From Phenylobacterium sp. (GTDB lineage: Bacteria > Pseudomonadota > Alphaproteobacteria > Caulobacterales > Caulobacteraceae), in NCBI GenBank assembly GCA_017991675.1, contig JAGOQB010000010.1:18344-82343 (forward strand): a stretch of 64,000 nt of DNA. The letters are read 5' to 3'. Position 1 is the stretch's first letter, and each line of letters opens with the position of its first letter. Shown here in pieces: positions 38,134 through 56,152 of the stretch. The translations under genes and the position numbers were made by a program. The notes under the pieces are model-generated. The model searched no databases. It was given only the letters and a program-made list of their open reading frames with translations, and was not told the origin of the DNA.

Positions 38134-38148
38134 TCGAATGGCATTCGA
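38134..38148. promoter_or_regulatory. Catabolic operator site A
   Basis: TCGAATGGCATTCGA, a perfect 7+1+7 palindrome preceded by CTTG, 86 bases before the receptor's signal-peptide ATG at 38234. It differs from the consensus TCGAACGnCGTTCGA by one symmetric pair. Confidence 0.65.
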
Positions 38149-38233
38149 AAATTCTCCATCGCTTCTACAGAGCTGCGCGCGCTGGGCGACGCAGGCTGAT
38201 CGAGCCCGGCGAAGACCGGCGATGGAGGGGGCG

Positions 38234-38335
38234 ATGTCGAAGTCCACGTACCTGATGGGCGCGGCCGTGGCGTTAGTTATTGCGCGCCGGCCTGGGCGCA
38301 ATCACCCCCTGAGGGGACGTTCATTGAGGAATTGA
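38234..38335 (+). pseudogene. Signal-peptide start of the TonB receptor, out of frame with the body
   Basis: ATG 38234 with GGAGGGGG upstream encodes MSKSTYLMGAAVALVI, a classic signal-peptide start, but the frame then runs to a stop at 38335. The continuation expected for a receptor (CAPAWAQ, then EELIVTAQKREES) is read in the neighbouring frame from about 38282. One missing base near 38275-38285 would join them. Confidence 0.75.
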
Positions 38336-40941
38336 TCGTCACGGCGCAGAAGCGCGAGGAGTCCATGCAGGACGTCCCGATCGCGGTCTCCGCCTTCGGT
38401 GAGAAGGCGCTGAAGGCGCAGGGGCTCGATGGCCCTAAGGACCTCGTACTGTCCGTTCCAAACGTTTCGTTCCAGCGGCGCGCAACCGACGCCAACTTCC
38501 AGATCCGCGGCATCGGAACCCAAGCAGCCACCCTAGGCGGTGAGAATGGGGTCGGCATCCACGTCAACAACGCGCCACTTACAACCAGCTTAATTGCCGA
38601 GGCCGAGTTCTACGATATGGAACGGGTCGAGGTTCTTCGGGGGCCGCAAGGGACCCTTTATGGACGGAACGCGACGGGCGGCGTCGTCAACCTGATCACC
38701 AACAAGCCCTCTGACCAAAGGTCCGGTTCGGTCACGGCCGAGTTTGGGAACTACGATACCCGAAAGCTCACCGGATACGTGAACCTGCCCCTGGGCGACA
38801 TGGTCGACCTCAGGGTCGCCGGGTTCGGGCTGCAGCGTGAAGGCTACAGCCTGAACACCCTAAATGGGGCGCGCGTCGATAGCCGCAAGATCTGGGCGGG
38901 TCGCGTCACCGGGGCGTTCCGCCCGACCGAAAATTTCGTCGCGACACTGATGTGGGACGGATTCTCCGAGGACGATACACGCGGCGCCAGGAAGAACCTC
39001 TGCGTTAAAGATGTCGGCCGGACGGAAGTCCTGGGCGTGCCCACGGGAGATGCGCAGGCGGTTTTAACCCAGGGCTGTCTGCCGTCGAGCGTCTATGCTG
39101 ACAACGTCTATGGCTCGACCAACTCGCTCGCGACTTTCTCGGGGATCGTGGGGCGATTAGGGGGCTTGCAGCCTGTTGACTCCTTCGCCGGTAAGCAGGT
39201 TTCGCGGAACCTTCGGGAGACCGAGTTGGTCGGGAGGCCTATCTATCGCCCCCGGGTGGATCTCTATCAGCTCAATCTGGAGTGGAGTCCGACCGACGCA
39301 CTGAAGGCCACGTCTCTCACGAGCTACAACGAGAACGAGCTCTATACACGGGAGGATTACACCGGCGGCTACCCGTCCGTCGCGTTCCCCAACTCGCCTC
39401 TGGCGCCGACGGGAACTCTTACCGATACGCAGTTTGGGACCACTGACCGATTGCAGGCGATCTATGGGGCCACTGGCCACTCCACCCAGTGGACTCAGGA
39501 ACTGCGGCTGCAGTCGAATTTCGAAGGGCCGATCAACTTCAACGTTGGCGGCATCTACGTGCGATACCAGGCGGACTATAAGAGCTATGTGGCCTCGAAT
39601 GTGGCCAACGCCTTGACGCCTGTCCTGGTGCCGGACGCCTATGTTGATACGCTGCCGGAGCCCGACTACACGGGCCACAACTACTTTTTCAGCCAGGAGG
39701 CCTATCGGCTGACCTCGAAGGCCGCGTTCGGCGAGGTCTACTGGACGCCCACTGAAAGCCTGCGTTTTACCCTTGGCCTTCGCTATACGGATGATCAGAA
39801 GAAGTCCGTGGGCTCCGGATCCACCCTGTTCGAGCCGGGGCGGGGGCCAATCTTCGACCCTGAGCAGCGAGTCGGATTCAAGGAGACCACGGGGCGCCTG
39901 AACGTTGACTGGAGCCCCACACTGAGCTTCACGGACAGCACGCTCGTCTATGCGTCATTGGCGAGGGGCTACAAGGCTGGCGGGTTCAACCCCCCGGGGG
40001 TCGTCAGCCTGGGCCTAAACCCGTCCTACGACCCGGAATTCGTCAACGCCATCGAGGTGGGCACCAAGAACACGCTGCTCGATGGGCGGTTGCTGCTGAA
40101 TATCACTGCCTTCCACTACAAGTATGAGGGCTACCAGATGGCGCGGCCCGTGAACCGCAGCTTGTTCAACGAGAACGTAGACGCCACGATCAAGGGCCTT
40201 GAGGTCGAGACCATCTTCGAACCCGTGAAGGGCCTGAGATTCAACGCGAATCTCGGCCTCCTCGATAGCAAAATTGAGAAAGGCGAGGTGGTCGACACGT
40301 TCAATCGTACCCGCGACGACCCCCGCTATGTCTATATCAGTTCGCTCTCAGGCGGCTGCATCCTCAATGCCCAGGGCCTAGCGAACCTGCTGGCGACGCC
40401 GTCGGGACCCGGCGTCGTGGAAGCTACGGCGTGCACCGGGCCTGCCGACATGGCGAATGTGCTTTCCGCGGTGGGGGCTTCGCCTGAAGCGGCTGCATCC
40501 CTTGCGGCTGGCGTCTACACCTATGGTCCGGGGGTTTCCCTGTTCTCGAATGGAGCAGGTGAAGGGTTGATCCAGAGCCTTCCGGGCAACCAATTGCCTA
40601 ACGCCCCGAAGATGACGGCTTCGCTTGGTGCGCAATACCGCTGGCAGGTCAGTGATGATTGGGAAGCGACCGTCCGCGGGGACTTCTATTGGCAGGACGA
40701 GAGCTACGCCCGGTACAACAACGCCTGGTTCGATCGGATCCATGCCTGGAGCAACGTCAACGCGATGATTTCGGTAGAGAACGTCGAAGCCCAGGTCACA
40801 ATCCAGCTCTATGTGAAGAACGCCCTCAATGAGGATACCATCGTAGGTGTGGAAATCGCCGATGAGAACCTGGGGGCGATCCGGCAGCCGGCCCTCCTGG
40901 ATCCCCGAACCTACGGCATCTCGATAACCAAGAGCTTTTAG
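38332..40941 (+). CDS. TonB-dependent receptor, body separated from its signal peptide by a frameshift
   Basis: 869 aa if read from the TTG at 38332. TonB box IVTAQKREES, plug with MERVEVLRGPQGTLYGRNAT, then a long beta-barrel ending TYGISITKSF with terminal Phe. The family is the CirA/FecA-like group used by Caulobacterales and sphingomonads for organic nutrients. Without the upstream signal peptide the protein could not reach the outer membrane, so the gene is either inactive, frameshifted in translation, or affected by a sequence error. An operator-like palindrome precedes it, and it is the first unit of the catabolic region, so it may import the growth substrate. Confidence 0.85.
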   Translation: MIVTAQKREESMQDVPIAVSAFGEKALKAQGLDGPKDLVLSVPNVSFQRRATDANFQIRGIGTQAATLGGENGVGIHVNNAPLTTSLIAEAEFYDMERVEVLRGPQGTLYGRNATGGVVNLITNKPSDQRSGSVTAEFGNYDTRKLTGYVNLPLGDMVDLRVAGFGLQREGYSLNTLNGARVDSRKIWAGRVTGAFRPTENFVATLMWDGFSEDDTRGARKNLCVKDVGRTEVLGVPTGDAQAVLTQGCLPSSVYADNVYGSTNSLATFSGIVGRLGGLQPVDSFAGKQVSRNLRETELVGRPIYRPRVDLYQLNLEWSPTDALKATSLTSYNENELYTREDYTGGYPSVAFPNSPLAPTGTLTDTQFGTTDRLQAIYGATGHSTQWTQELRLQSNFEGPINFNVGGIYVRYQADYKSYVASNVANALTPVLVPDAYVDTLPEPDYTGHNYFFSQEAYRLTSKAAFGEVYWTPTESLRFTLGLRYTDDQKKSVGSGSTLFEPGRGPIFDPEQRVGFKETTGRLNVDWSPTLSFTDSTLVYASLARGYKAGGFNPPGVVSLGLNPSYDPEFVNAIEVGTKNTLLDGRLLLNITAFHYKYEGYQMARPVNRSLFNENVDATIKGLEVETIFEPVKGLRFNANLGLLDSKIEKGEVVDTFNRTRDDPRYVYISSLSGGCILNAQGLANLLATPSGPGVVEATACTGPADMANVLSAVGASPEAAASLAAGVYTYGPGVSLFSNGAGEGLIQSLPGNQLPNAPKMTASLGAQYRWQVSDDWEATVRGDFYWQDESYARYNNAWFDRIHAWSNVNAMISVENVEAQVTIQLYVKNALNEDTIVGVEIADENLGAIRQPALLDPRTYGISITKSF

Positions 40942-41374
40942 TGCGTGCTTGCACCGCGTCTCGAGGTGTGGGCCTTGAGACGCGGTGTTGGTCCGGCGCC
41001 TTTCGCGCACACGGGCCATGACGTCTCCGGTTGACGGCCGCGCTGAATGTCCTCGCTGTCTCCCTCAGGCCACCTAGCCCCGGGCCATCCCCGGGGCGTT
41101 TTTCGGCTGCAACAGGGCGTCGCTAGCTCCGACCCCAGCAAGACTCCATGTCGAATTTGGCGACCTCTAGCAGGTGCGACTATCCCGCCGGCCGCCCGTC
41201 TAGGCGTGTATAGCAGGGAGTTCCGGCGGCGCGAGGTCGCTCCACCTTCAGCCCTCGGCGACTGATGACGACGCCAGAGCGCGGGACTGTTTCCGCAGGC
41301 GCCAAGGGCAGGGCCGCCGGGCCAGGCGGGTTAGCGCCGGACGGCCAGGCAGCACAGTGACCGGGGTTCCAACC
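40942..41374. other. Intergenic region after the TonB receptor
   Basis: 433 bases between convergent genes. Apart from the terminator at 41077-41103 I see no gene or repeat. Confidence 0.5.
41077..41103 (+). terminator. Terminator downstream of the TonB receptor
   Basis: A perfect 8-bp stem, GCCCCGGG with CCCGGGGC around a five-base loop, followed by GTTTTT. It lies 136 bases after the receptor stop. Confidence 0.75.
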
Positions 41375-41884
41375 TTAGCGAACGTCCGCCGGGCGTTCGG
41401 TGACAACACCCACGGCGAGGGCCATGACGACCAGCTCGCCGTTCTGGTCGCGATACTCGGTAATACTCTCCGAGAACTTCAACCTGCCTCCCCGCTTGCT
41501 CTCGCGTTCCCATGAGTCGCCAGCTCTCGTGGTGACGGACAGCACGTCGCCGGGGCGCACGTGGCGATAGTATTCGTAGTGCTGTTCGGCGTGGAGACCC
41601 CCGCTATCGCTGCTACCGTCGCCCTTGGCCTCAGTGTCCTTGTGCGGTGGCGTACCGGTCGGATTCCGACCCGAACCGAACCAGGGGCGGCTAGGCTTGG
41701 GGCGTAGGAAATAGTCTGGATCGAACTGTGCGCTTGCCTCGACGAAGGTCGGCGGGGCGATGATTCCGCCAGCTTCCGTGCTCGCTGCCGATTGGGGGTC
41801 GCAATAGACCGGATTCTCGTCGCCGACTGAGCGGGCGAACATCAGGATGTGACTGAACTCTACAGGGAAGGTATTGGCGGCCAT
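41375..41884 (-). CDS. FAS1-like/MaoC hot-dog protein lacking the catalytic His
   Basis: 169 aa. The N-terminal hot-dog half resembles FAS1-like dehydratase subunits: EFSHILMFARSVGDENPVYCD, IAPPTFVEASAQFDPDY, and later QHYEYYRHVRPGDVLSVTTRAGDSWERESKRGG. In active hydratases the block reads D-x4-H (as GDYNPLH in the protein at 51771); here it is GDENPVY, so the His is missing. In steroid degradation such inactive subunits pair with an active MaoC partner, and the gene at 51771 is a candidate. A degenerate operator site lies 74 bases upstream. Confidence 0.75.
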   Translation of the reverse strand: MAANTFPVEFSHILMFARSVGDENPVYCDPQSAASTEAGGIIAPPTFVEASAQFDPDYFLRPKPSRPWFGSGRNPTGTPPHKDTEAKGDGSSDSGGLHAEQHYEYYRHVRPGDVLSVTTRAGDSWERESKRGGRLKFSESITEYRDQNGELVVMALAVGVVTERPADVR

Positions 41885-41957
41885 GGGTTCCTCTCGAGGA
41901 TGCGCCGCCGGCGTCGGTGACGCACTCGACCCGCATCCTGGCTCAAGGACAACCGGC

Positions 41958-41972
41958 TCGATGCACGTTCGG
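41958..41972 (-). promoter_or_regulatory. Catabolic operator site H (degenerate)
   Basis: On the minus strand it reads CCGAACGTGCATCGA, preceded by CTTG. It matches 10 of 14 consensus positions and stands 74 bases before the hot-dog gene start at 41884. It is the weakest of the set. Confidence 0.35.
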
Positions 41973-42234
41973 CAAGGAGGTCGAGGTGGCGCAGCCGAGA
42001 GTGCAGGCTGGCAGCAGCCTTATCCCACTCGGAGCGGCTCGCGCGCTTGTTGCCGGGCTGCGTGACCTACTCGATGTCGCCACTCCTCGCGACCGGCGAA
42101 GAAGACGGACGCTGCATCCGCCGCCTGTGCTGACAGCGTCTTTTGCTGATCAGCTCAACTCCATGCGCCTCTGGGGTCTCGACGACTTTGGTCCGGGTCA
42201 CGAGGTTTTTCCGGACGGTAAGTAATCCATCTGT

Positions 42235-42249
42235 TCGAACGATATTCGA
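42235..42249. promoter_or_regulatory. Catabolic operator site B
   Basis: TCGAACGATATTCGA, 12 of 14 consensus positions with both outer arms (TCGAA/TTCGA) perfect. It is 300 bases before the monooxygenase ATG. Confidence 0.55.
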
Positions 42250-42548: not shown

Positions 42549-44048
42549 ATGAACCAAGTACTCGCGTCTCAAACAGACGCTGCTGCGGAAGTGCAGCATT
42601 TCGACGTTCTGATCGTCGGCGCCGGCATCGCGGGGATTGGCTCCGCCTACCACATGAAGACGCAGGCTCCGGACAAGACGTTCGCGGTCCTCGAAGCGAG
42701 GGATGGGTTCGGCGGGACCTGGCGCACGCACCGCTACCCGGGCGTGCGATCCGACAGCGATCTGCATACATTCGGCTATCGGTTCAAGGCGTGGCGCGGT
42801 GCGCCGATCGCGACGGCGCCGGAGATCCTCACTTACATGGGTGAGGTGATTGCCGAGAATGATCTCGCCCAGTTCATTCGTTATGACACCAGGATTCAGT
42901 CGGCGCGGTGGTCGAGCGTCGAGCGTCGGTGGACGGTTGAGACAATCAACATGCTGACCGGTCAGCGCCACGCGTTGACGACCGGCTTCCTTTGGATGTG
43001 CCAAGGCTACTACAAGCACGATCAGGGCTACACGCCTTCCTGGTCCGGGATGAGCGAGTTCCAGGGGCAGATCGTCCATCCGCAGACTTGGCCTGAGGAC
43101 CTCGACTACCGGGGTAAGCAAGTGGTTGTGATCGGCTCCGGTGCCACGGCAGCGACGTTGGTGCCGTCGCTCGCCGACAGGGTGGCGCACGTCACCATGT
43201 TGCAGCGCTCGCCGACCTATTTCACGCCGGGCGACAATCGAAACGAGCTCGCCGAGACCTTGCGCGAACTTGAGGTCGATCCTGCTTGGACGCACGAGAT
43301 CGTTCGACGGAGCATCCTGAGCAACGACGCAAAGATGACCCGGCGCACGCTGGAAAATCCAAACAAGGCTCGCGAAGAGCTACTTGGAGTGGTGCGCAAC
43401 ATTCTGGGCGAGGAGTATGTCGCCCAGCACTTCACGCCCAGCTATGCGCCGTGGCGCCAACGCGTCTGCTTTGTACCCAATGGCGATTTCTTCGAAGCAA
43501 TCAAGGCGGGTAAGGCCGCAGTCGTCACAGATGAGATCGAGAGCTTCACGAAGACCGGTATCCGCTTGAAATCCGGTGAGACGCTGGAGGCCGACATCGT
43601 CATAACCGCGACCGGCTTTGACCTTAGCGTCATGGGTGACATCGAGTTCTCGGTCGACAACGAGCCTCTCGATTTCGCCGACACGGTCACCTACCGCGGT
43701 ATGATGTTCACCGGCGTTCCGAACCTTGTTTGGGTGTTCGGATACTTTAGGGCGAGTTGGACGCTGCGGGCGGACCTCGTTGGCGACTTCGTGCCCCGCC
43801 TGCTCCGACACATGGACGCCAAGGGCATGGACCAGGTTGAACCGGTTCTCCGGCCAGAGGACGCCGACATGGCGCTTGAGCCGTGGATGGATCCAGAAAA
43901 CTTCAACCCCGGGTACCTCACGCGCAGCATGCATCTGATGCCGAAGAGCGGGGCTAAACCGGAATGGCGTCACACGCAGGACTACTGGTCCGAAAAGGAC
44001 GTGTTCCCCGCAATTGATCTAGATGGGCCCGAGTTCCTCTATCGATAA
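42549..44048 (+). CDS. Baeyer-Villiger-type flavin monooxygenase (EthA-like)
   Basis: 499 aa. FAD site VGAGIAGIG near residue 24, NADPH site VVIGSGATAATL near 195, and between them the Baeyer-Villiger fingerprint FxGxxxHxxxWP as FQGQIVHPQTWP (171-182). The EthA-like GFGGTWRTHRYPGVRSDSDLH and late ATGFDL are present. It should insert oxygen next to a ketone to form an ester or lactone, using NADPH and O2. In this cluster it may act on a cyclic or methyl ketone; the substrate is unknown. No close neighbour shares its strand, so it is probably a single-gene unit. Confidence 0.88.
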   Translation: MNQVLASQTDAAAEVQHFDVLIVGAGIAGIGSAYHMKTQAPDKTFAVLEARDGFGGTWRTHRYPGVRSDSDLHTFGYRFKAWRGAPIATAPEILTYMGEVIAENDLAQFIRYDTRIQSARWSSVERRWTVETINMLTGQRHALTTGFLWMCQGYYKHDQGYTPSWSGMSEFQGQIVHPQTWPEDLDYRGKQVVVIGSGATAATLVPSLADRVAHVTMLQRSPTYFTPGDNRNELAETLRELEVDPAWTHEIVRRSILSNDAKMTRRTLENPNKAREELLGVVRNILGEEYVAQHFTPSYAPWRQRVCFVPNGDFFEAIKAGKAAVVTDEIESFTKTGIRLKSGETLEADIVITATGFDLSVMGDIEFSVDNEPLDFADTVTYRGMMFTGVPNLVWVFGYFRASWTLRADLVGDFVPRLLRHMDAKGMDQVEPVLRPEDADMALEPWMDPENFNPGYLTRSMHLMPKSGAKPEWRHTQDYWSEKDVFPAIDLDGPEFLYR

Positions 44049-44586
44049 CCACATTGACGAGGCCGGCAGCTATGGGCGTCGCGCTCGCAGTAGGTAGGAA
44101 GCTACGAACGTCTCCGCGAAAGTCCACGTCGCGGGTGCAGCCGCTAGGTAGGGAGGCTGGCGAGTTGGCGGCGCGCTCTACGGCATTGAGGACCGTCCGA
44201 TAAGGGAAGCGATCCCCCCGGAATTTCTACGCGCAACGGCGCTGTTCTTGCTGGGGTAGAGGACGCATACGGCATTGAGGACGGTTTCATCGAACCGCGG
44301 CGCTGCCGTTGGTCCCAGCGCGTAGTGCTTAGTGAAGAGATCTCTCGGTATCAGCGGACCGAGAAATCATACGTTGCGGCGGTCGTGCGATGGACCTTGC
44401 CGCTGCGAGCCCCCGAGGCGCTTCCTTGCTGCGGCACGAGCTGGCCTGAGCCGGCTTGCGCCAACTCGATTCAGGCGAAGGCGAGCAAAATCAAAGCTAT
44501 GGAAGTATTTGGGGTTTTCGAACGCCATTCGAGGGCTGAGACCCATTCTCCAGGTAAGAGGATTGGACCGGAGGGAGGTTACTGGC
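44049..44586. other. Intergenic region between the monooxygenase and SDR genes
   Basis: 538 bases. It contains the operator-like palindrome at 44518-44532. The SDR open frame extends back into this region, but the residues are not SDR-like. No other element is visible. Confidence 0.45.
44518..44532. promoter_or_regulatory. Catabolic operator site C
   Basis: TCGAACGCCATTCGA, 13 of 14 consensus positions, 54 bases before the SDR start at 44587, a position where bound protein would block transcription. Confidence 0.65.
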
Positions 44587-45447
44587 ATGGGGTTGTTAGA
44601 CGGCAAGGTCGCCATCGTCACAGGCGCGGGCGGCGGGCTTGGTGAGGCCTACGCCAGGCTCTTCGCCCAGCAGGGTGCTCGGGTGGTTGTCAACGACCTG
44701 GGCGGCGCACGCGATGGATCGGGCTCCGACCGCTCGGCCGCGGAACGCGTTGCAGCGGCGATCCGGCAGGACGGCGGAGACGCGGTCGCCAATGGCGATG
44801 ACGTTTCTACGGTGGAGGGAGGGGAGCGTATCCTCGCCGCGGCCCTCGACGCATTCGGCCAGATCGACATCCTTGTGTGCAACGCCGGCATCCTCCGCGA
44901 CCGGACCTTTGCCAAAACCAGCGAGGCCGACTGGGACGCGGTTATCCGGGTGCATTTGAAGGGCGCCTATTGCTGCGCCCTGCCGGTGTGGAATTGGATG
45001 AAGGACAACGGGCGTCCAGGCGTGATCGTCATGACTTCCTCGACGTCCGGCCTCTACGGCAATTTCGGCCAAGCCAACTACGGGGCGGCGAAAGCGGGCA
45101 TCTACGGCCTCGTTCGTGTGCTTTCGATCGAGGGCCAGAAGTACGGCATCCGCGTCATGGGCTTGGCGCCTGCGGCGCTCACCCGGATGACCGAGGACTT
45201 GCCTGGAATGGGTGAGGCGGCCGCTGACGAAATGAGCAGCCCCGAGAACATAGCCCCCAGTGTGCTCTTCATGGTCTCGGATCTCGCCGCCGGTTACAGC
45301 GGCAGGATCCTTGGCGTGTCCTGGGAAGGCGTCAGCGAGATTAAGATGATGGAGACAGTCGGGTTTCGACCCGGCCGACCCTACACGGCTCAGGATGTGG
45401 CTGACCACGCTTCCGAGGTGTTCTTCCCCGAACAGGCGCGGGCCTAG
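44587..45447 (+). CDS. Short-chain dehydrogenase, multifunctional-enzyme type 2-like
   Basis: 286 aa from ATG 44587 with GGAGGGAGG upstream. NAD(P) motif TGAGGGLGEAYAR near 13, NDLGG, NNAG-equivalent VCNAGILRD near 96, catalytic Ser/Tyr/Lys in TSSTSGLYGNFGQANYGAAK. The long NDLGGARDGSG insert and ENIAPSVLFMVSD resemble the (3R)-hydroxyacyl-CoA dehydrogenase part of peroxisomal HSD17B4. It would oxidise a 3-hydroxyacyl-CoA made by the MaoC hydratase, or a secondary alcohol. Confidence 0.85.
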   Translation: MGLLDGKVAIVTGAGGGLGEAYARLFAQQGARVVVNDLGGARDGSGSDRSAAERVAAAIRQDGGDAVANGDDVSTVEGGERILAAALDAFGQIDILVCNAGILRDRTFAKTSEADWDAVIRVHLKGAYCCALPVWNWMKDNGRPGVIVMTSSTSGLYGNFGQANYGAAKAGIYGLVRVLSIEGQKYGIRVMGLAPAALTRMTEDLPGMGEAAADEMSSPENIAPSVLFMVSDLAAGYSGRILGVSWEGVSEIKMMETVGFRPGRPYTAQDVADHASEVFFPEQARA

Positions 45448-45630: not shown

Positions 45631-46959
45631 TCAGCCGCGCCAGCGCAGGTGACGTCCTACCAGTAGCGCGAGGACGACCGTCGGCGCCGTGATGGCGGCG
45701 TTCACAAAGAAGGGGGCGTCCGGCATCCAGGCGAACAGCGCCAGCGCCAACTGGGGACCAACGAGACGCGACAACGAGTCTATCGCGTTCTTGAGACCGA
45801 GCGTCTGGCCTTGGCGATCGGGGCCAGCGGCGCGGGAGACCAGCGACGTAGCGTTCGGGTTAGCGAGTGCTGCCCCCGTGGACATCAAGGCCATGAGAAT
45901 GACCATGACCGGCCAGTTGGGCGAGAACGGTTGGGCCAGGAGGCACACCATCATGACGGCGTTGCCGAACGCTAGCATGTTGGCCTCGCCGAAACGGCGC
46001 GACAGGGGCCCGGTTATCAAAAGCAGCGCCACCGTCGAGGCGACGGCCGAGGCTGTGAAGCAGTAGCCGATCGCAGCTGTCGACCAAGCATACCGGTCCA
46101 CGGCCCAGAAGCCGAACATGGACTCGAAGCCGTTGAACGCCACGCCGACGATGAACGTGAGCAGTATCAACGGCCCGATCACGGGGTCTTGGAGGGAGGC
46201 ACGCGCGGCGATCCAAGGGCTCTCATGTCCGGTCGGTCGGTCGGCATGGGCCCGGCTCTCACGCAGAAGGATCAGGATCAGCATGGCTGCGAGCGCCATG
46301 AGCCCGGCCGCTACGAGCAACGGAAGCCGAAAGCCCGCCGTACCGATCTCGGGGCGGGCCAGCAGGCCGCCGAGGCCGGGTCCGAACATGTAGCCGAAGT
46401 GGTAGGCTGCGCCGAGCAGCCCCAATCGACCTGTCCGTTGGGCCACAGGTGTCACATCGGCGATGTAGCCGCTGACCACCGCACTGTTGCCGCCGACGAC
46501 GCCGCCTAGGAAGCGGATCAGGGTTGCGATGACGATGCTGGGTGCGAAGGCCACCGCGAGAACGCATGCGCAGTTGGCGGCCAAGGTGAAGACCAGCACC
46601 GGCTTGCGCCCAATCCGGTCTGAGAGTCGTCCCCAAACGAGTTCGCCGAAGAACGCGCCAACGGCCCAGGCCGAGAACAGCAAGCCAATTTGCCATGTCG
46701 GGGCATCGAACGAGCGTGCATAGAACGGCAAGAGCGGCACGATGACGCCAAAGCCCAATGTGTTGAGCATCATCACCAGCAGCAATGCCGGCAACGCCTT
46801 TCGTGAGGCGCGAAGAGCGAGCTCTTCAGGCGTCGTGAGCTGGGCGGGAACAGTGCCAGCAGGCGGAAAGCGAGGCTGTTGGGAACGCTTCGTTAGATCA
46901 GGCAAGGGGGCACGACCAGATTCTGCGGCGCGCCAGAGGGCTTCTCCAGCGCGCGCCAT
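45631..46959 (-). CDS. MFS transporter (TetA/multidrug-like)
   Basis: 442 aa with 12 predicted helices. MFS motif A is present as GRLSDRIGRKPVL, and the start of helix 1 (LNTLGFGVIVPLLPFYAR) resembles the drug:H+ antiporter-1 (TetA) group. The first 55 residues are an unusual hydrophilic tail before helix 1, so the true start may be further in. It converges on the SDR gene. It may export an intermediate or import the substrate. Confidence 0.82.
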   Translation of the reverse strand: MARAGEALWRAAESGRAPLPDLTKRSQQPRFPPAGTVPAQLTTPEELALRASRKALPALLLVMMLNTLGFGVIVPLLPFYARSFDAPTWQIGLLFSAWAVGAFFGELVWGRLSDRIGRKPVLVFTLAANCACVLAVAFAPSIVIATLIRFLGGVVGGNSAVVSGYIADVTPVAQRTGRLGLLGAAYHFGYMFGPGLGGLLARPEIGTAGFRLPLLVAAGLMALAAMLILILLRESRAHADRPTGHESPWIAARASLQDPVIGPLILLTFIVGVAFNGFESMFGFWAVDRYAWSTAAIGYCFTASAVASTVALLLITGPLSRRFGEANMLAFGNAVMMVCLLAQPFSPNWPVMVILMALMSTGAALANPNATSLVSRAAGPDRQGQTLGLKNAIDSLSRLVGPQLALALFAWMPDAPFFVNAAITAPTVVLALLVGRHLRWRG

Positions 46960-48537: not shown

Positions 48538-48572
48538 GGAGAGTTCCCTCTTCATCCACAATGTTCAATGGG

Positions 48573-49655
48573 TCAGTCGAAGACGATCACGGAGCGGGCT
48601 AGTTCGCCGCTCTTCATGTCGGCGAAGCCCTCATTGATCTGGTCGAGCCGGATGCGGCGCGAGATCAGCTGGTCGAGCTTCAGCTTGCCGGACATGTAAA
48701 ACTCGACGAGCCGCGGCATGTCGACGGGGAAGCGATTGGATCCCAGCATCGAGCCCTGGATGCGCTTTTCGCTTAGGAAATCGACCCCCGGGAGGCTGAT
48801 GTTCTGGCCGTAGGGGATCATTCCGATCACGTTGGCGACGCCCCCGCGCGCGAGCATCATGAAAGCTTGTTCGGCGGTCCTGGCCAGGCCGATCGCCTCG
48901 AAGCTGTGATGCACGCCGCCCTTCGTCAGTTCGAGGACGGCTTCGACCGCGTCGAACTGCGATGCGTCGACAAAGTCCGTCGCCCCGAACTCCTCGGCCA
49001 GCTTCCCCTTGGACGCGACCCTATCGACGGCGATAATCCGGCCTGCGCCGGCAATTGCAGCGCCATTGATCGCGGCCAGGCCCACGCCGCCGCAGCCAAT
49101 GACGGCGACCGTCTCGCCTGCCCGCACGTTGGAGGTGTTCATCGTCGCCCCGACGCCGGTCATCACCGAACAGCCGATCAGGGCGGCGCGATCGAGCGGC
49201 ATGTCCCGTCGAATGGCCACACAGGCATGTTCGTGAACCAGCATCTGCTCGGCGAACGAGGACAGGTTCAGATACTGGGGCAGGGCGGCGCCGTTCAGCG
49301 CGAGCCGGGGTTCCTCTGCGTCGCCACGCGAGGTTTCGGGCGACTCGCAGAGGGAAAGGCGACCGGTCAGGCAGTGCTCGCAGTGGCCGCAGAATGCAGA
49401 CAGGCATGTGATCACGTGATCGCCAGGCTTGACGGTGCGCACCTCGGAGCCGACGGCCTCAACCACCCCGGCGCTTTCATGGCCCAGCACCGCAGGCAAC
49501 GGGTGGGAGTACGAGCCTTCGATGAAGTGAAGGTCCGAATGGCAGAGGCCGGCCGCCTTGGTGGTGATCAGAACCTCGCGCGGCCCCGGCTTACTGATCT
49601 GGACGTTCTCAATCTGAAGCGGTTGGCCCACTTCCCGGAGCACGGCAGCCTTCAT
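48573..49655 (-). CDS. Zinc-dependent alcohol dehydrogenase
   Basis: 360 aa from ATG 49655 with AAGGGAGG upstream. Catalytic zinc ligands in AAGLCHSDLH and GHESAGVVE, structural zinc in CGHCEHCLTGRLSLC (about 91-105), NAD-binding VIGCGGVGLAAINGAAIAGA. It resembles the class III/benzyl-alcohol-type ADHs. Together with the ALDH downstream it would oxidise the alcohol produced by the P450 to a carboxylic acid. An operator-like site lies about 110 bases upstream. Confidence 0.9.
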   Translation of the reverse strand: MKAAVLREVGQPLQIENVQISKPGPREVLITTKAAGLCHSDLHFIEGSYSHPLPAVLGHESAGVVEAVGSEVRTVKPGDHVITCLSAFCGHCEHCLTGRLSLCESPETSRGDAEEPRLALNGAALPQYLNLSSFAEQMLVHEHACVAIRRDMPLDRAALIGCSVMTGVGATMNTSNVRAGETVAVIGCGGVGLAAINGAAIAGAGRIIAVDRVASKGKLAEEFGATDFVDASQFDAVEAVLELTKGGVHHSFEAIGLARTAEQAFMMLARGGVANVIGMIPYGQNISLPGVDFLSEKRIQGSMLGSNRFPVDMPRLVEFYMSGKLKLDQLISRRIRLDQINEGFADMKSGELARSVIVFD

Positions 49656-49763: not shown

Positions 49764-49778
49764 TCGAACGACGTTCCA
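49764..49778 (-). promoter_or_regulatory. Catabolic operator site D
   Basis: TCGAACGACGTTCCA on the plus strand, 13 of 14 consensus positions. Read towards the ADH gene it is preceded by GCTTGTG and continues GAGTCCC, almost the same context as site G. Confidence 0.7.
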
Positions 49779-49926: not shown

Positions 49927-51510
49927 TCAAATCTGTTTGGATCTGCCTTCCCAGTATGAAGCTCTCACCTTGTTTCGCTGGATCTTGCCGGCCTCGCTTC
50001 GCGGCAGGTCGGTCACGAAGTCCAGGCTCCGCGGCGTCTTGAAGCTAGGCAGGATGCGGCGCGCGTAGCCAAGGATATCGTCCGCCAGTTGTTCGGAGGG
50101 CGTGACGCCGCTCCTTAGTAAGATCACCGCCTTTACCTGCTCGCCCCACTCGTCGTGAGGCACGCCGATGGTCGCCGAGTCCGCGACCGCCGGGTGCTTT
50201 GCGAGTTCGTTGTCGATCTCCTGCGGATAGATGTTCACCCCGCCGGAGATGATGACCTCCGCCGATCGGCCGGTCAGGAAGAGGTAGTCCTCCTCGTCGA
50301 AGTACCCGATGTCGCCTTGGGTGAAGTAGCCGCCGACCCTGGAGGCGTCGGTCTTTTCCTGGTCTTTGTAATAGGTGAAGCCACCGTTTTCGGGCAGCTG
50401 ATGGTAGATCGTGCCGGGCACGTTGCGCGGGCACTCCGCGCCGTATTCGTCGAGGGCCTTGGCGCTGAGCGGGGTGGCGCGCTTGCCGACCGATCCCGGT
50501 CTCGTCAGCCATTCCTGGCTGTCGATCGTGAAGTAGCCGCCTTCGGAACTTGCATAGTACTCGTGAATGATCGGGCCAAACCACTCGATCATCGCGATCT
50601 TCACTTCCGGCGGGCATGGCGCCGCTCCGTGGACGATATACGCGAGCGACGACACATCATACGTTGCACGCACAGCTTCCGGCAGTTCCAGCAGCCGCTG
50701 GAACATGATCGGAACCATGTGCATGTGGGTCACGTGGAAGCTCGCGATGGTCGCGAGCACCGTTTCGGAATCCCACTTGTCGAGAAACACTAGGGGACAG
50801 CCCACGGCCAGCGCTGCGCTCACATCGTAGTGGAGCGGCGCTGCGTGATAGGCTGGGCCGGCGCACATCTGGACGCTGGCTTCAGGGGAATAACCGAGCG
50901 GCGTAAACGCAGAGCGGGGGCTCCAGGAATCGTAGCCCTCGTGCAACACGCCCTTCGGGCGGCCTGTGGTGCCCGAGGTATAGAGCATGACACCGCCCAC
51001 TACGGGCTCGTCGATGTCCTCAGAGTCGAACGCCGCGAGCGTCGTGCGGTAATCTTCGCAATCAGGATTCGGCTCACCGATCACCAGCTTTGCGGCCAAG
51101 CCATTGAGCATAGCAAGGGCGGACCGCACCGCCGGTGTCCTGGACTCAGCGATCACCGCCTTGGCGTCGCAGTCTTCGACGATGTAGGCGATCTCTTGTG
51201 CGGTAAGGTGCCAGTTGATCGGCGTGAGCCGTAATCCCGCACGCCGGGTCGCGGCGAGCGCCTCGATGAACTCACACCGGTTCGAACAGATGAGTGCGAC
51301 GGCGTCTCCGGTGTTCAAGCCACGTTGCCGAAGCAGGCGGGCGAGTTGGTTGGCGCTGGCGTTTATTTGACGGAACGTATGGGCCTTGCCGTCGGGATCG
51401 TAGACCGCGACCGCGTCGGGTCTTTCGACCGCCCACGCCGCCAGCGTCATGCCGACCGCCGCGGCGGCGTCGTGCCGCTTGTCGATATCTGCTTGGTCTC
51501 GCCAACCCAT
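49927..51510 (-). CDS. AMP-forming acyl-CoA synthetase
   Basis: 527 aa from ATG 51510; the open frame extends upstream but without family similarity. P-loop TSGTTGRPKG near 175-184, SSEGG and the adenylation motifs YFTQGDIGYFDEEDYLFLTGRSAEVIISGGVNIYP; C-terminal Lys in SEAGKIQRNKVR. It activates a carboxylic acid to its CoA thioester with ATP. Its place beside ADH, ALDH and a divergent MaoC hydratase suggests it charges the acid made by the two dehydrogenases. Confidence 0.9.
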   Translation of the reverse strand: MGWRDQADIDKRHDAAAAVGMTLAAWAVERPDAVAVYDPDGKAHTFRQINASANQLARLLRQRGLNTGDAVALICSNRCEFIEALAATRRAGLRLTPINWHLTAQEIAYIVEDCDAKAVIAESRTPAVRSALAMLNGLAAKLVIGEPNPDCEDYRTTLAAFDSEDIDEPVVGGVMLYTSGTTGRPKGVLHEGYDSWSPRSAFTPLGYSPEASVQMCAGPAYHAAPLHYDVSAALAVGCPLVFLDKWDSETVLATIASFHVTHMHMVPIMFQRLLELPEAVRATYDVSSLAYIVHGAAPCPPEVKIAMIEWFGPIIHEYYASSEGGYFTIDSQEWLTRPGSVGKRATPLSAKALDEYGAECPRNVPGTIYHQLPENGGFTYYKDQEKTDASRVGGYFTQGDIGYFDEEDYLFLTGRSAEVIISGGVNIYPQEIDNELAKHPAVADSATIGVPHDEWGEQVKAVILLRSGVTPSEQLADDILGYARRILPSFKTPRSLDFVTDLPRSEAGKIQRNKVRASYWEGRSKQI

Positions 51511-51568: not shown

Positions 51569-51583
51569 TCGAATCGCGTTCTA
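51569..51583 (-). promoter_or_regulatory. Catabolic operator site E1
   Basis: TCGAATCGCGTTCTA on the plus strand, 11 of 14 consensus positions. Towards the acyl-CoA synthetase gene it is preceded by CCGCTTGTA, as at site D, and lies 59 bases before the ATG. Confidence 0.5.
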
Positions 51584-51645
51584 CAAGCGGCCGGTGTTGC
51601 GGGCGTGCTGACGCATCGGAATGATCGATCTCTGTCGGGGTATTG

Positions 51646-51660
51646 CGAAACGCCGTTCGA
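51646..51660 (+). promoter_or_regulatory. Catabolic operator site E2
   Basis: CGAAACGCCGTTCGA, 11 of 14 consensus positions, preceded by ATTG; 111 bases before the MaoC hydratase start at 51771. Two sites in one divergent region fit one for each gene. Confidence 0.5.
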
Positions 51661-51770: not shown

Positions 51771-52193
51771 ATGGCGCTTTCCGCTAGCAAGCTGAACGTG
51801 GGCGATGTCCATACCGCCCGTGTCGTCGAGGACCTGAAGCGCACCCAGATCGTCCAGTATGCGGGCGCGTCCGGCGACTACAATCCGCTACATACCGACG
51901 AGATATTCACCACCAAGGCGGCGGGTTATCCATCGGTATTCGCGCACGGCATGCTGACCATGGGCATGACCGGCAAGATGCTCACCGACTATGTGGGCGA
52001 CGCGCGCCTGACCAAGTACGGCGTGCGCTTCACCAGCCAAGTTTGGCCCGGTGACACCCTCGACGCCACCGCGACCGTGAAGGCGATAAGCGAAAAGGAC
52101 GGCGTCAGGCTGGTCGAGCTCGACGTCTCCACCTTCAACCAGGACGGCGTCGTAGTGTTGAGTGGATATGCTGAGGCGAGCCTGGATCCTTGA
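51771..52193 (+). CDS. MaoC-family (R)-specific enoyl-CoA hydratase
   Basis: 140 aa from ATG 51771 with AAGGAGGAG upstream. The hydratase-2 motif is complete: YAGASGDYNPLHTDEIF with catalytic Asp and His, then FAHGMLTMG. It should add water to a 2-enoyl-CoA. It may pair with the His-less hot-dog protein at 41375-41884, as heteromeric hydratases do in steroid catabolism. Divergent from the acyl-CoA synthetase. Confidence 0.88.
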   Translation: MALSASKLNVGDVHTARVVEDLKRTQIVQYAGASGDYNPLHTDEIFTTKAAGYPSVFAHGMLTMGMTGKMLTDYVGDARLTKYGVRFTSQVWPGDTLDATATVKAISEKDGVRLVELDVSTFNQDGVVVLSGYAEASLDP

Positions 52194-52269
52194 GGGCACC
52201 AGGCGTTCTCACGTTCTGTCCGGGATCGACGATCGGAGACGAACCCGATCGTCGGTAGCGCTTTAGAGC

Positions 52270-53472
52270 TCAGCTAGGGCTGACCCTTGCCGACCCATCC
52301 TGCGGGGGCGTTTGGTCAGAGCGCACGAAGGAGAGGGCGACGCACGACATGACGGCGCCGCCCACCGCGAGCCATGCGAGGTTTTGATAGACGCCGCCGC
52401 GCACGAGGTAGCCCGCGAGCGCCGGCGCCCCGGCGCCGATCAGCATCGACCACGATGTGGCGGCCGCAGCTAGGCCACCGCTGCGGTCGCGGGCGATTGC
52501 GAGGGCGGTCAGGAACGGCATAGTGAACATATAGCAGAACGCCTGCGCTCCTATGGCGACCATATAAACCGCCTGATCCCAGGCGACGCTCAGGAGCGTC
52601 GTCGCGCCCCCGAACAAGACCAGGCCCGTGAACGCCCAGAACTTTTCGCGACCAGGTCGCGCGAGCCAGACGGCGCACGCGCCGCCCACGATGCCCATCA
52701 TCGCTGCGCCCGCAAGGAAGTCGCCGATAGTCGCCGTCTGCAGCCCCAGCCGCACGCCGATGCGTTCGGTGAAATAGTAGACGCCGCCGGACCCAATGCT
52801 GAGGCCGACAAACGACAGAACGACTGGCGAGCGCAGCATTGCCGTGAGAGGAAGGGCCTGGTGCACGCTCTCGCGAGCGTGGCGGTTGGGCAGGGCGAGC
52901 GTTAGCAGGCCAGCGACAAGGAAAATCGCCGCCTGAGCCATGAACAAGCCATATCGACCACTGGCCTGCGCCAGATGGGCGACCGGCGACGTTAGGCCAG
53001 CCACCAGGAGCGTGGTTCCGACCGTCACCATCGCGGCGGTCCGGTCGACACGCACAGCGGTCGCAAGCGCAGCGGAATAGCAGGCCAACAGCGCGCCGCA
53101 CCCTATACCGACGATCGCTGCGGAGGCGGTGAGCGCGGCCTGGGACACAGCGAACGCCTGCCAGATATTGGCCAGTACAACAGCGACGCAAGCCGCGATC
53201 CCGAAGGCTCTGGCCGATATACGGTGCAACTGCGTCGAAAGCGCGATCCCGACGAGCGCGGTGAAGAGGCTTTGCTGGGCCATGAGCGTGCCAACCTGTG
53301 AGCTGGTCAGGTGTAGCTCGTCCTGGAACCGTCCGATAATCAGGGGCGCAGTGGTCAGGTAGAGGCTGTTGACCAGAGATAGGCCGATCAGACCGGCAAA
53401 TAGCCGCCGTGGCGGCGACAGGAGACCAAGTTTGCGGTCGTGCGTCGCCATCGTGCTGCGAACCTCCGCCAT
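52270..53472 (-). CDS. MFS transporter
   Basis: 400 aa from ATG 53472, two bases before the thiolase stop; an ATG at 53451 is the other choice. Twelve hydrophobic helices; the N-terminal RLFAGLIGLSLVNSLYLTTAPLIIGRF and the segment GSGGVYYFTERIGVRLGL are those of a sugar/aromatic-acid-type or drug-type MFS protein with weak motif A. The DUF35-thiolase-MFS order on the minus strand suggests one operon. The substrate is unknown. Confidence 0.8.
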   Translation of the reverse strand: MAEVRSTMATHDRKLGLLSPPRRLFAGLIGLSLVNSLYLTTAPLIIGRFQDELHLTSSQVGTLMAQQSLFTALVGIALSTQLHRISARAFGIAACVAVVLANIWQAFAVSQAALTASAAIVGIGCGALLACYSAALATAVRVDRTAAMVTVGTTLLVAGLTSPVAHLAQASGRYGLFMAQAAIFLVAGLLTLALPNRHARESVHQALPLTAMLRSPVVLSFVGLSIGSGGVYYFTERIGVRLGLQTATIGDFLAGAAMMGIVGGACAVWLARPGREKFWAFTGLVLFGGATTLLSVAWDQAVYMVAIGAQAFCYMFTMPFLTALAIARDRSGGLAAAATSWSMLIGAGAPALAGYLVRGGVYQNLAWLAVGGAVMSCVALSFVRSDQTPPQDGSARVSPS

Positions 53473-53473
53473 C

Positions 53474-54616
53474 CTAATGAGCTTCGTTCGAGAAGATGAT
53501 CGTCCCTGACGCGGCGAACATGCCTCCGACGCCATGAGCGACGCTGATCTTTGCCCCCGGCACTTGCGCCGGAGCGATCCCGCGCATCTGGCGGACGCTC
53601 TCCTGCAGCGCGTACATCCCGTACATGCCTGAGTGCATGTACGACAGGCCGCCGCCATTGGTGTTCATCGGCAGCTTGCCGCCAATCGACGTGGCGCCGC
53701 TCCTTATAAAGTCGGCCGCCTCGCCCTCTTCACAAAAGCCGAGGTTCTCCAGGCCGTAGAGAGGGAGGTGTGCAAAGGCGTCATAGATCATCAGATGATC
53801 GACGTCGGCGGGGGCGATCCCAGCCTCCTCGAACGCCTTGGCTCCGCTGATCCGGAAGGCCGTCGAGCGCGTGAAATCGTACATCTGGCTGATGAGCGGT
53901 GTTTCCACGCTTTCCCCCGTTCCCAGGATGAAGACCGGCTTCTGCGGGAAGTCCCTTGCCCTGTCCGCAGAGGTCAGAATCAGCGCGCCTCCGCCGTCTG
54001 TGACCAGGCAGCACATCAGTTTCGTGAAGGGCCACGCGATCATCTCCGCGCGCAGCACGTCTTCGACTGTGAGGGGGGCCTGATGCTTGGCCCGCGGGTT
54101 CATGGCGGCCCACTGGCGCTGGACGACCGCGACGCGCGCGAGATCCTCAATGCTGTAGTTGCGCGCCTTGAGGTACCGGAGGACTGGCACGGTGAACATG
54201 GTCGGCGGGCCGGTGACGCCGTATGGCGCCTCGAACTGTCCAGACAGGCTCGACCGCGACGAGACGTACTCGGCGGCGCCTACGCCGGACCGACCACTTT
54301 CGCCATGGGTGATCAAGATCGTGCGGGCAAGCCCTTCATTGATCGCCGCCGCCGCGTGTCGCACGTGGAGCATGAAGGAGCAGCCGCCGACATTGGTGTC
54401 GTCCACGTAAGTTGGCTTGATCCCAAGGTAGAACGCCAAGTCGATGGCGCTGATGCCCGCGGTGGCGACGCCATCGATGTCCGACGGCTGCAATCCGGCG
54501 TCCGCGAGGGCGTTCAGGGCCGCGTCGGCGTGAAGGCCGATTTCGGAGACGTCGGAAATGCGGCCGAGCTGAGTGGTCTCGGCGGCTCCCACGACTGCGA
54601 CGCTATTGCGCATCAT
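53474..54616 (-). CDS. SCP2/Ltp2-like thiolase-fold protein
   Basis: 380 aa. Thiolase fold of the non-classical 'lipid-transfer' type: VGAAETTQLGRISDVS, NVGGCSFMLHVRHAAAAI, GGGALILTSADRA, DAFAHLPLYGLENLGFCEEGE, NTNGGGLSYMHSGMYGMYAL and ISVAHGVGGMFAASGT. The nucleophile position of normal thiolases is Gly by my alignment, with a Cys one residue later, and the C-terminal active-site Cys is missing (HGVGG). Ltp2-like aldolases, which release propionyl-CoA by retro-aldol cleavage of steroid side chains, have this character. It overlaps the DUF35 gene by 14 bases, their usual partner. Confidence 0.85.
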   Translation of the reverse strand: MMRNSVAVVGAAETTQLGRISDVSEIGLHADAALNALADAGLQPSDIDGVATAGISAIDLAFYLGIKPTYVDDTNVGGCSFMLHVRHAAAAINEGLARTILITHGESGRSGVGAAEYVSSRSSLSGQFEAPYGVTGPPTMFTVPVLRYLKARNYSIEDLARVAVVQRQWAAMNPRAKHQAPLTVEDVLRAEMIAWPFTKLMCCLVTDGGGALILTSADRARDFPQKPVFILGTGESVETPLISQMYDFTRSTAFRISGAKAFEEAGIAPADVDHLMIYDAFAHLPLYGLENLGFCEEGEAADFIRSGATSIGGKLPMNTNGGGLSYMHSGMYGMYALQESVRQMRGIAPAQVPGAKISVAHGVGGMFAASGTIIFSNEAH

Positions 54617-55031
54617 CGCTTTGCACCTTCACGGGTTGGAAGAAGGGGAGCCAGACGTCCTCGCCCTGGGCGGAGAATGTCACCTTCAACGGCATGTCGA
54701 GTTTCAGCATCTCGGGCGTCTGCGGACATCCGACGATGTTGGTCATCATCGTCGGGCCTTCACTCAGCTTCACCACGGCGATGGCGTAGGGCTCGTCTCC
54801 CATGTCGGGGCGAGGCCGCATGTTGATGACGTACGACCAGAGGATCGCATCGCCGGTGCTTTCAAAGACCTCGATATCGCGGGAGCCGCAGTTCGGGCAG
54901 AACGGGCGTGGAGGAAAGTAAGCGCCGCCGTCGCAAGTGGTGCAGCGTTGAAGGCGAAGCTCGCCAAGCCTGCAGCCCTCCCAGAAGCGCCGGGTTTCGG
55001 GTGTAGCCTCAGGTAATGATCTCGGCGGCAT
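54603..55031 (-). CDS. DUF35 zinc-ribbon/OB-fold protein, partner of the thiolase
   Basis: 142 aa. Rubredoxin-like zinc ribbon (LQRCTTCDGGAYFPPRPFCPNCGS) followed by an OB fold (AILWSYVINMRP, PYAIAVVKLSEGPTMMTNIVG). Such proteins bind acyl-CoA and form tight complexes with SCP2-type thiolases or Ltp2 aldolases; in mycobacteria the equivalent is the C-terminal domain of ChsH2. First gene of the DUF35-thiolase-MFS unit. Confidence 0.9.
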   Translation of the reverse strand: MPPRSLPEATPETRRFWEGCRLGELRLQRCTTCDGGAYFPPRPFCPNCGSRDIEVFESTGDAILWSYVINMRPRPDMGDEPYAIAVVKLSEGPTMMTNIVGCPQTPEMLKLDMPLKVTFSAQGEDVWLPFFQPVKVQSDDAQ

Positions 55032-55467
55032 TGCGTCCTCGACACGTGGGAACCTCCTGGCGCTGGCCTAGCCGCCGGTTCCGACATCGGGGGGCCTTCA
55101 GGTCGCGCTGGAATGGATGTGTCCTCATCGGGATTGCTGAAACGGTGTTCGAAAAGCCAAAAAATGTGGTGGGGGGCTGTAGTCGCGGTGGGCGATCAAT
55201 CGGTCGCTGTCGGGGGGCGTGACTGCCAACGGCGACCGAGGTCCGGCGTCGATTCGTCGGACGTGGCAAAGACGCGCGCTGAGTGATGGGCGTTGACGAA
55301 AGTTAAGGCCGTCTGCCAGCGTGCGAAGTGGTTTTTGACGGCGAGTAAGAATTCGAAGGCGAACAATACCTTGGCTGGGCGTTCGTGCGTGACGTGCGTG
55401 CGGGAGGCGATCCACGACGGGAGACCGTCGGACCTTTGCGTCCCAATGAGACCCCGTGATGGCTTGA
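55032..55467. other. Divergent intergenic region, DUF35 / TetR
   Basis: 436 bases. It holds operator site F at 55138-55152. A TTGACG at 55288-55293 could be a -35 for the TetR gene, but no clear -10 follows. No gene is supported. Confidence 0.45.
55138..55152. promoter_or_regulatory. Catabolic operator site F
   Basis: TGAAACGGTGTTCGA, 11 of 14 consensus positions, preceded by ATTGC. It stands 107 bases before the DUF35 gene and about 330 before the TetR gene. Confidence 0.5.
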
Positions 55468-55485
55468 TTGACGGATGAAGCAATT

Positions 55486-56127
55486 ATGAGACTGAACGCC
55501 AAACATGCCGCGTATGAAATTCATAGCGTTAGGACGAGAACGCTCGATGCTGCGGCTATAATTCTAGCGCAGCGTGGTGTTGAAGAGTTCAGCCTGAGAG
55601 AGGTTGCGGACAAGGCCCGGATCGGTGTTGCTTCGATCTATCACTACTTTTCCAATAAAGAAGATTTGTTTCTAAATCTGGCGATTGAGGGCTACGAAGA
55701 CCTTCATAGTAACATCATCAGCTTTCAGGATCGCCCGGAGTATCCCTCCTGCATGGAGGCGGCCGAGGCGGCGTATTTCTCTTTTGTGGAACACAAGCCG
55801 GCGTTGTTCTCGCTGATGTTCAACGAGCGGCTGATGGCGCGGCACGAAGAGTTGAGGGCCGCGGAGCGGAGGACTTTCCTAGCATACCAGGAGACGATCG
55901 AGTCCGATGGGCGCTTTCCCCCTGCAGCGCGCGTCAACGTGGCAAGCGCCCTATGGGCGCTCGGGCGCGGCATTGCGGCGATGTATTATTCCGAGCCGGA
56001 CAACCGCGTCTTGATGCAGATGTTGGAAGCGATCTGGGCCGGCACGGCCTATCTGATTGATCGATCAGACTACCCTGGCGAGGGCGTCGACGCCTTGCTC
56101 AAAGAGCCCAAGATGGCGACCGGCTGA
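55486..56127 (+). CDS. TetR/AcrR family transcriptional regulator
   Basis: 213 aa from ATG 55486 (a TTG at 55468 is also open). The DNA-binding domain is typical: RTRTLDAAAIILAQRGVEEFSLREVADKARIGVASIYHYFSNKEDLF (helix-turn-helix about residues 36-57). The ligand domain (about 75-200) resembles regulators of acyl-CoA metabolism. It lies inside the catabolic region with operator-like sites on both sides (55138 and 56138), so it is the best candidate to bind the 15-bp palindrome. This is not proven. Its base composition is lower in GC than the surface and pho genes. Confidence 0.88.
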   Translation: MRLNAKHAAYEIHSVRTRTLDAAAIILAQRGVEEFSLREVADKARIGVASIYHYFSNKEDLFLNLAIEGYEDLHSNIISFQDRPEYPSCMEAAEAAYFSFVEHKPALFSLMFNERLMARHEELRAAERRTFLAYQETIESDGRFPPAARVNVASALWALGRGIAAMYYSEPDNRVLMQMLEAIWAGTAYLIDRSDYPGEGVDALLKEPKMATG

Positions 56128-56137
56128 CACGGGCTTG

Positions 56138-56152
56138 CGGAACGGCGTTCGA
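56138..56152 (+). promoter_or_regulatory. Catabolic operator site G
   Basis: CGGAACGGCGTTCGA, 12 of 14 consensus positions, preceded by GCTTG and followed by GTCTC. It lies just after the TetR stop and 180 bases before the acyl-CoA dehydrogenase start. Confidence 0.65.

Follow-up and report, generated by a model that had tools for sequence, protein, structure and literature searches.

CYP153 enzymes are common alkane hydroxylases. The regulators of CYP153 genes named in the excerpted part of a review are AraC-type activators, and one adjacent TetR gene, to which that part assigns no role, is mentioned from a Mycolicibacterium (PMC8784404). In Streptomyces coelicolor, according to the excerpted text of another paper, the TetR-family protein SCO7222 has its footprint on three copies of TGGAACGnCGTTCCA and reduces the expression of SCO7223, a divergently placed monooxygenase gene (PMC3511530). 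Here we analyse a 64,000-nucleotide stretch of a Phenylobacterium sp. genome (contig JAGOQB010000010.1, C10:18344–82343, reaching the contig end; hereafter the window), in which a 15-bp palindrome recurs between the genes of a catabolic cluster that also encodes a TetR-family protein (55486–56127, plus strand) and a CYP153-type cytochrome P450. We put at roughly 0.85 the probability that the palindrome is the operator of this TetR-family protein, which would act as the local repressor of a CYP153-linked oxidation regulon. Sequence comparison makes a new TetR regulon well supported, with a predicted TetR–operator pair that is also conserved next to CYP153 genes of other genera.

Palindromic sites between the genes of the cluster

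A sequence-only reading of the window had listed nine copies of the palindrome. Eight of them (38134, 42235, 44518, 49764, 51569, 51646, 55138, and 56138) stand: they match 11–13 of the 14 fixed positions of the consensus, and all are recovered at 15.0–22.9 bits by a position weight matrix built from 34 non-redundant sites of relatives, with the window sites excluded (matrix B; matrix A was built from the eight window sites). The ninth, at 41958, was rejected, as it matches 10 of the 14 positions, a level that many places in the window reach, and scores 3.7 bits with matrix B. All eight sites lie between called genes, in a region (38000–61300) where intergenic DNA accounts for 4,204 of 23,300 bases (chance 1e-6). 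Compared with shuffled DNA, the loose consensus with at most three mismatches is only slightly enriched in the window (10 found, 6.4 expected, and 10 reached by 8 of 100 shuffles); the signal resides instead in the quality and placement of the sites.

Across the 3.03-Mb assembly, which is 71 per cent complete, the consensus with at most two mismatches occurs at 17 distinct sites, six of which fall in a 26-kb stretch (38–64 kb of the window; binomial 4e-9); the reversed pattern occurs seven times in all. These six comprise five of the sites listed originally and one at 63876. An extended pattern, TTnnnGAAYnnnRTTCGA, devised after the sites had been seen, has six exact strand matches in the genome, corresponding to five sites that are all inside the cluster. 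Allowing one mismatch adds 42235 and 51646 in the cluster and 13 sites scattered elsewhere, and yields 22 strand matches in total versus one for the reversed control. An equal frequency inside genes or genome-wide, which had been named as the outcome that would speak against a regulon, is not what we found: the sites are intergenic and concentrated in the cluster. The motif is mainly, though not strictly, a property of this one cluster.

The plus-strand site at 38134–38148 (TCGAATGGCATTCGA; 20.8 bits) lies before the gene of a TonB-dependent receptor and matches the extended pattern exactly, with TTG at the −35-like place and AT at +25/+26 (the first base of a site being +1). Between a hot-dog gene on the minus strand and a flavin monooxygenase gene on the plus strand is the site at 42235–42249 (TCGAACGATATTCGA; 22.9 bits, no strand assigned), which is without the TT flank and has one mismatch to the extended pattern. 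A short-chain dehydrogenase (SDR) gene begins 55 bases after the plus-strand site at 44518–44532 (TCGAACGCCATTCGA; 22.5 bits). On the minus strand, 49764–49778 (TGGAACGTCGTTCGA; 22.2 bits) precedes a unit of alcohol dehydrogenase (ADH) and aldehyde dehydrogenase (ALDH) genes, 109 bases from the ADH start, and 51569–51583 (TAGAACGCGATTCGA; 16.7 bits) is situated 59 bases from the start of an acyl-CoA synthetase gene. The plus-strand site at 51646–51660 (CGAAACGCCGTTCGA; 15.0 bits) lies 111 bases before a MaoC hydratase gene. The minus-strand site at 55138–55152 (19.1 bits) separates a DUF35–thiolase–MFS unit (minus strand, 107 bases away) from the tetR gene (plus strand, 334 bases away), and in the minus orientation it has TTT and AT at promoter-like places. 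Directly 3' of tetR, 180 bases before the first of two acyl-CoA dehydrogenase genes, is the plus-strand site at 56138–56152 (CGGAACGGCGTTCGA; 18.4 bits). The earlier count of seven out of nine sites within 180 bases of a start codon was roughly right: by the gene calls it is six of eight, counting a start in at least one direction, with 38134 (217 bases from the called receptor start) and 42235 (300 bases from the called start) farther away.

The palindrome at 63876–63890 (TCAAACGGCGTTCAA) matches 12 of 14 positions, scores 14.5 bits, and is located at the end of an open reading frame, its last base 110 bases from the contig end. We suspected the end of an insertion sequence, but a 161-base search turned up no second copy in the genome. 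This palindrome may be a regulon site or a mobile-element end, and it was left out of the site set.

The TetR-family protein and its relatives

The protein encoded at 55486–56127 (alternative start TTG at 55468) belongs to the TetR family by its Pfam TetR_N score of 54.4 bits (cut-off 24), and its structural model has an all-helical TetR fold with a mean pLDDT (per-residue model confidence) of 83.6. The best match of the model in the PDB is FasR; among the 50 matches listed, most of which are named as TetR-type proteins, the TM-score by query length ranges from 0.38 to 0.65. The nearest solved structures among these matches, headed by FasR (one entry with C20-CoA) and including Bacillus FadR, would fit an acyl-CoA or fatty-acid ligand.

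We searched for this protein in 149 genomes, of which 54 match at 1e-12, including 10 other genomes of the genus (43–52 per cent identity). Hosts of the orthologues include Phenylobacterium, Caulobacter, Parvibaculum, Rhodobiaceae, Hyphomonadaceae, and Sphingomonas corticis, among others. With the window matrix, each of the 28 orthologue loci (L089–L116), some of them near-identical (e.g. L102–L104 and L099/L100), carries at least one site of at least 15 bits, and all 52 matches in these loci are intergenic, with called intergenic DNA making up 51 of 466 kb. In both the window and the relatives, putative palindromic operators flank the TetR gene. A control set of 52 loci with unrelated TetR genes (L117–L168) has a match in nine (nine matches in 855 kb); this control is weak, because many of its loci come from other phyla and have another base composition and because the window served as training sequence for the gene caller. 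Better controls are provided by CYP153 loci with and without a TetR of the clade and by TetR loci of the same genome. In a de novo word search that made no use of the window motif (23 orthologue loci; intergenic DNA around the TetR gene, 15.8 kb in total), GAACNNNGTTC ranked first among palindromic words and was present in 19 of the 23 loci, whereas the best word, palindromic or not, reached 9–13 loci in 20 Markov-regenerated sets. (TetR alignments A1 and A2 omit L085 and the first TetR of L086, and A2 also omits L079, L088, and the second TetR of the window.)

The co-occurrence extends to CYP153. Relatives in Parvibaculum and Caulobacter have the TetR gene next to a CYP153 gene, with the operator about 40–110 bases before the latter. 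An upstream site accompanies 29 of the 31 CYP153 genes that have a clade TetR within 2 kb (the exceptions are L065 and L114); these 31 are not deduplicated and include the distant TetR group considered below, and L048 was dropped as identical to L093. Conversely, in 29 loci of CYP153 genes similar to the window P450 (L192–L220, with flanks of about 1.5 kb), which rank among the best-scoring of the matches listed, neither a TetR of the clade nor a site was found (0/29 for each). In the genome itself, where TetR_N has 51 matches, we scanned 30 TetR loci, and sites of at least 14 bits were found only near 55486; none of the other 29 reaches that score, and a locus on contig C24 has a site of 13.7 bits. 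The suggestion of the sequence-only reading that the sites form one regulon, with the 55486 protein as the candidate binder, is borne out as far as sequence comparison can do so, both by the presence of the motif in all 28 orthologue loci and by the lack of sites in the first of these two controls and of sites of at least 14 bits in the second.

A paralogous TetR on contig C23, 44 per cent identical, has a variant operator, TCAAATCGGATTCGA, at the adjoining TonB receptor gene (L088:6898–6912, C23:79898). The same variant occurs on the other strand beside a similar TetR in another genome (L079), and it scores 12.0 bits with the orthologue matrix and 15.0 with the window matrix.

The arrangement of the sites relative to the genes suggests how the protein would act. 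For this analysis we used 62 distinct sites, with strand duplicates removed and 20642, 63876, and one site in a called gene left out. A one-sided TT flank points toward the nearer gene start in 46 of the 62 and away from it in six; among the remaining 10, three lie more than 300 bases from any start and seven lack a one-sided flank. T is found at +26 in 37 of 49 usable sites (13 per cent expected), and 27 of the 49 have A at +25. We infer that the operator lies in a 17-base spacer between a TTG −35 element and a −10 element ending in AT. The window sites flanked by TTG or TTT are 38134, 44518, 49764, 51569, 51646, 55138 (minus orientation), and 56138, and those with T at +26 are 38134, 51569, 51646, 55138 (minus orientation), and 56138. 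The CTTG or ATTG noticed ahead of several sites, and likened to a −35 element, is a genuine and conserved feature.

The position of the operator behind a gene-directed −35-like TT(G), together with the conserved T at +26, suggests repression by blocking RNA polymerase. We propose that without an inducer, dimers of the 55486 protein would occupy the eight operators, seven of which, being behind a −35-like TT(G), would fall within the spacer that precedes the −10 region, where the bound protein would block RNA polymerase. The receptor, monooxygenase, SDR, ADH–ALDH, acyl-CoA synthetase, MaoC, DUF35–thiolase–MFS, and acyl-CoA dehydrogenase units would thereby be kept silent. The expected releasing signal is a small hydrophobic compound from the pathway, such as the substrate, a fatty acid, or an acyl-CoA.

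The palindromes might instead be read by another regulator, namely the second TetR (58930–59565), a paralogue such as the C23 TetR, or a protein outside the TetR family. The second TetR does sit within the cluster, but it is only 22 per cent identical to the first, and its divergent promoter lacks the palindrome. The C23 paralogue has a close variant operator and more distant TetRs have the same one; however, the C23 locus holds the variant site only, at 12.0 bits with the orthologue matrix. The 28 site-bearing loci were fetched via an alignment with the 55486 protein at its head, and the comparison covers its relatives alone. On balance we regard a different reader as improbable. Slightly more improbable still is that the 55486 protein activates, or both activates and represses, from sites that overlap with the −35 element. 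The flank of the sites is often TTG, and some TetR-family proteins do activate (in the excerpted text of PMC3511530, AtrA raised its reporter); yet the sites keep a fixed offset inside the predicted −35/−10 spacer, where a bound protein normally blocks, and the nearest operator precedent, SCO7222, is described there as a repressor. Chance palindromes in GC-rich DNA, to which the near-random count of the loose consensus might point, are refuted by the way the sites cluster in the genome, fall between genes, and are conserved next to orthologues, and we give this explanation practically no weight.

Several observations nevertheless weigh against repression of a CYP153-linked regulon by the 55486 protein. 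The cluster's own CYP153 gene is without a site: the 121-base gap between the called starts of the second TetR and CYP153 genes (59566–59686) contains neither the palindrome nor an inverted repeat of more than 6 bases at a distance of up to 30 bases, and this P450 may therefore answer to another regulator. In L114 and L065, TetR and CYP153 genes stand side by side with no site before the P450 gene. T is present at +26 in just five of the eight window sites, and the TT flank in seven. The relatives' sites in matrix B were first chosen via the window matrix, so that the orthologue-locus counts and the window-site scores are partly circular; the de novo word search is free of this circularity. 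One match above 15 bits in the window falls in a coding region (20642, 16.0 bits). Within the 134,897 bases fetched from outside the cluster, a single place reaches at least 15 bits with matrix B (C3:456732, 17.4 bits); this site (L004:1501–1515, TCGAACGCCGTTCTG) is intergenic and 19 bases from the start of a minus-strand gene. Weaker intergenic matches outside the cluster are at C24:21812 (13.7 bits) and C11:176205 (13.4 bits). Lastly, loci of more distant TetRs (31–39 per cent identical, L057–L075) carry a GAACnnnGTTC operator of at least 13 bits in 17 of 19 cases, in part ahead of a CYP153 gene and in part where there is no such gene; because this group has the same operator, the operator is not specific to one orthologue group.

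Whether these loci belong to a widespread, undescribed alphaproteobacterial TetR lineage seems to us evenly poised. Such a lineage would share one layout (TTG–operator–AT) and CYP153-linked control and would have undergone repeated duplication, with paralogous sensors using a common operator code in one genome and so forming an overlapping hydrophobic-substrate network. A TetR protein with a known operator would offer a direct handle on when alphaproteobacteria degrade CYP153-type substrates, a candidate promoter–repressor pair for biosensors, and a means of assigning unknown genes to these pathways from the operator in front of them.

Genes of the cluster

Gene identities were assigned from Pfam and PDB searches. 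The first predicted member of the regulon is the TonB-dependent receptor gene (38332–40941, plus strand; PF00593/PF07715). By eye, a likely signal-peptide start of the receptor (ATG at 38234, AWAQ-like cleavage site) can be seen at 38234–38365 in a frame different from that of the called gene. This 5' end in another frame points to a gene frameshift or an assembly indel, and the distance from the operator to the start would then shrink to about 86 bases. The hot-dog protein of the FAS1_DH region (41375–41884, minus strand; PF13452) is a possible member, with 42235 as its sole site, 351 bases away. The flavin-binding monooxygenase (42549–44048, plus strand; Baeyer–Villiger/FMO-like; PF00743), which may have an AlmA-like role, has PDB matches such as steroid and phenylacetone monooxygenases over approximately residues 8–245.

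Next are the SDR (44587–45447, plus strand; PF00106), an MFS transporter without a site of its own (45631–46785, minus strand; PF07690), and, all on the minus strand, the ALDH (47098–48555; PF00171), the zinc ADH (48573–49655; PF00107/PF08240), and the acyl-CoA synthetase (49927–51510; PF00501). The MaoC-type hydratase (51771–52193, plus strand; PF01575) is followed by the minus-strand unit of an MFS transporter, a thiolase, and a DUF35/OB-fold protein of ChsH2 type (52270–55031; PF07690, PF22691, and PF01796), with the DUF35 start at 55031. Beyond tetR are the genes of two acyl-CoA dehydrogenases, PimC- and PimD-like (56332–58871, plus strand; PF02770/PF00441), whose best NCBIfam models are TIGR03204 and TIGR03203, both under cut-off. 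The second TetR gene (minus strand) is divergent beside the CYP153-type P450 gene (59687–60946, plus strand), whose product matches PDB entries 6hqg (3.7e-182), CYP153A7 (3rwl, 2.2e-161), and a CYP125-type chain (2.3e-67). These matches place the P450 in the CYP153 type, and terminal alkane hydroxylation is its predicted activity.

Taken together, the genes look like a cluster that serves to take up a hydrophobic compound and to degrade it by terminal oxidation and beta-oxidation, and we infer an alkane-like or isoprenoid-like substrate. The ChsH2-like and FMO genes had raised the possibility of a steroid pathway, but terminal oxidation is favoured by the CYP153 gene. In relatives, homologues of window genes occur near sites and TetR genes: the acyl-CoA synthetase with both acyl-CoA dehydrogenases (L112, L113, and L115), ADH–ALDH (L082–L084), the SDR with the acyl-CoA dehydrogenases (L078), and the flavin monooxygenase (L086). 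The regulon content thus appears partly conserved, and most other related loci have just TetR and CYP153 in common. Locus L078 (genome G022) is the richest related cluster among those fetched, with two clade TetR genes close to each other, seven sites of at least 13 bits in 20 kb, and homologues of the SDR and both acyl-CoA dehydrogenases.

Comparison with known systems

No earlier account that links this operator to a CYP153 cluster was found among the open-licence papers listed, an absence that is weak evidence. KstR and KstR2 are TetR-family proteins with AAC..GTT half-sites (AACnnGTT) that control a lipid-type catabolic regulon. The KstR pattern, as quoted in the sequence-only reading, has a two-base spacer, whereas all eight window sites have AAY-N3-RTT, and the 55486 protein scores 24.1 bits against the NCBIfam KstR model NF033703 (cut-off 280); the earlier remark that the motif is unlike that of KstR is therefore correct. 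The protein likewise stays below the NCBIfam models of PsrA (26.5 versus 300 bits) and Bacillus FadR (26.3 versus 200 bits). As sources of the motif, EdcR, KstR, PsrA, AlkU, and PheR (an IclR protein) were all rejected.

Like the protein proposed here, EdcR of Caenibius tardaugens is an alphaproteobacterial TetR protein that represses a catabolic cluster, but the operator proposed for it in the excerpted text, TnnCnnTACnAnTnGTAnnGnnA, differs from the window palindrome (PMC8700777). AlkX of Dietzia and AlkU of Rhodococcus jostii RHA1 are likewise TetR repressors of terminal alkane oxidation; in the excerpts at hand they control alkB-type genes, not CYP153, and the inverted repeats proposed for AlkU in RHA1, GATTTacAAATC and ACAAATcTtcAtATTTGT, are unlike the window palindrome (PMC6921075). 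CypR of Alcanivorax and Dietzia also regulates CYP153, yet it is described in the excerpted review as an AraC-type activator (PMC8784404).

The nearest precedent in the operator is SCO7222. Its operator TGGAACGnCGTTCCA and the window consensus differ in one outer base per half (TGG versus TCG), a position at which G is common in the relatives' sites. The window consensus is thus not of SCO7222 type throughout, and the minus-strand sequence at 49764, TGGAACGTCGTTCGA, fits one half fully. According to the same excerpt, the three SCO7222 sites lie at one divergent promoter, whereas eight are spread over the cluster here. The likeness comprises a TetR-family repressor (a predicted one here), a 15-bp palindrome with a GAACGnCGTTC core, N3 spacing, several copies, and a place before a monooxygenase gene.

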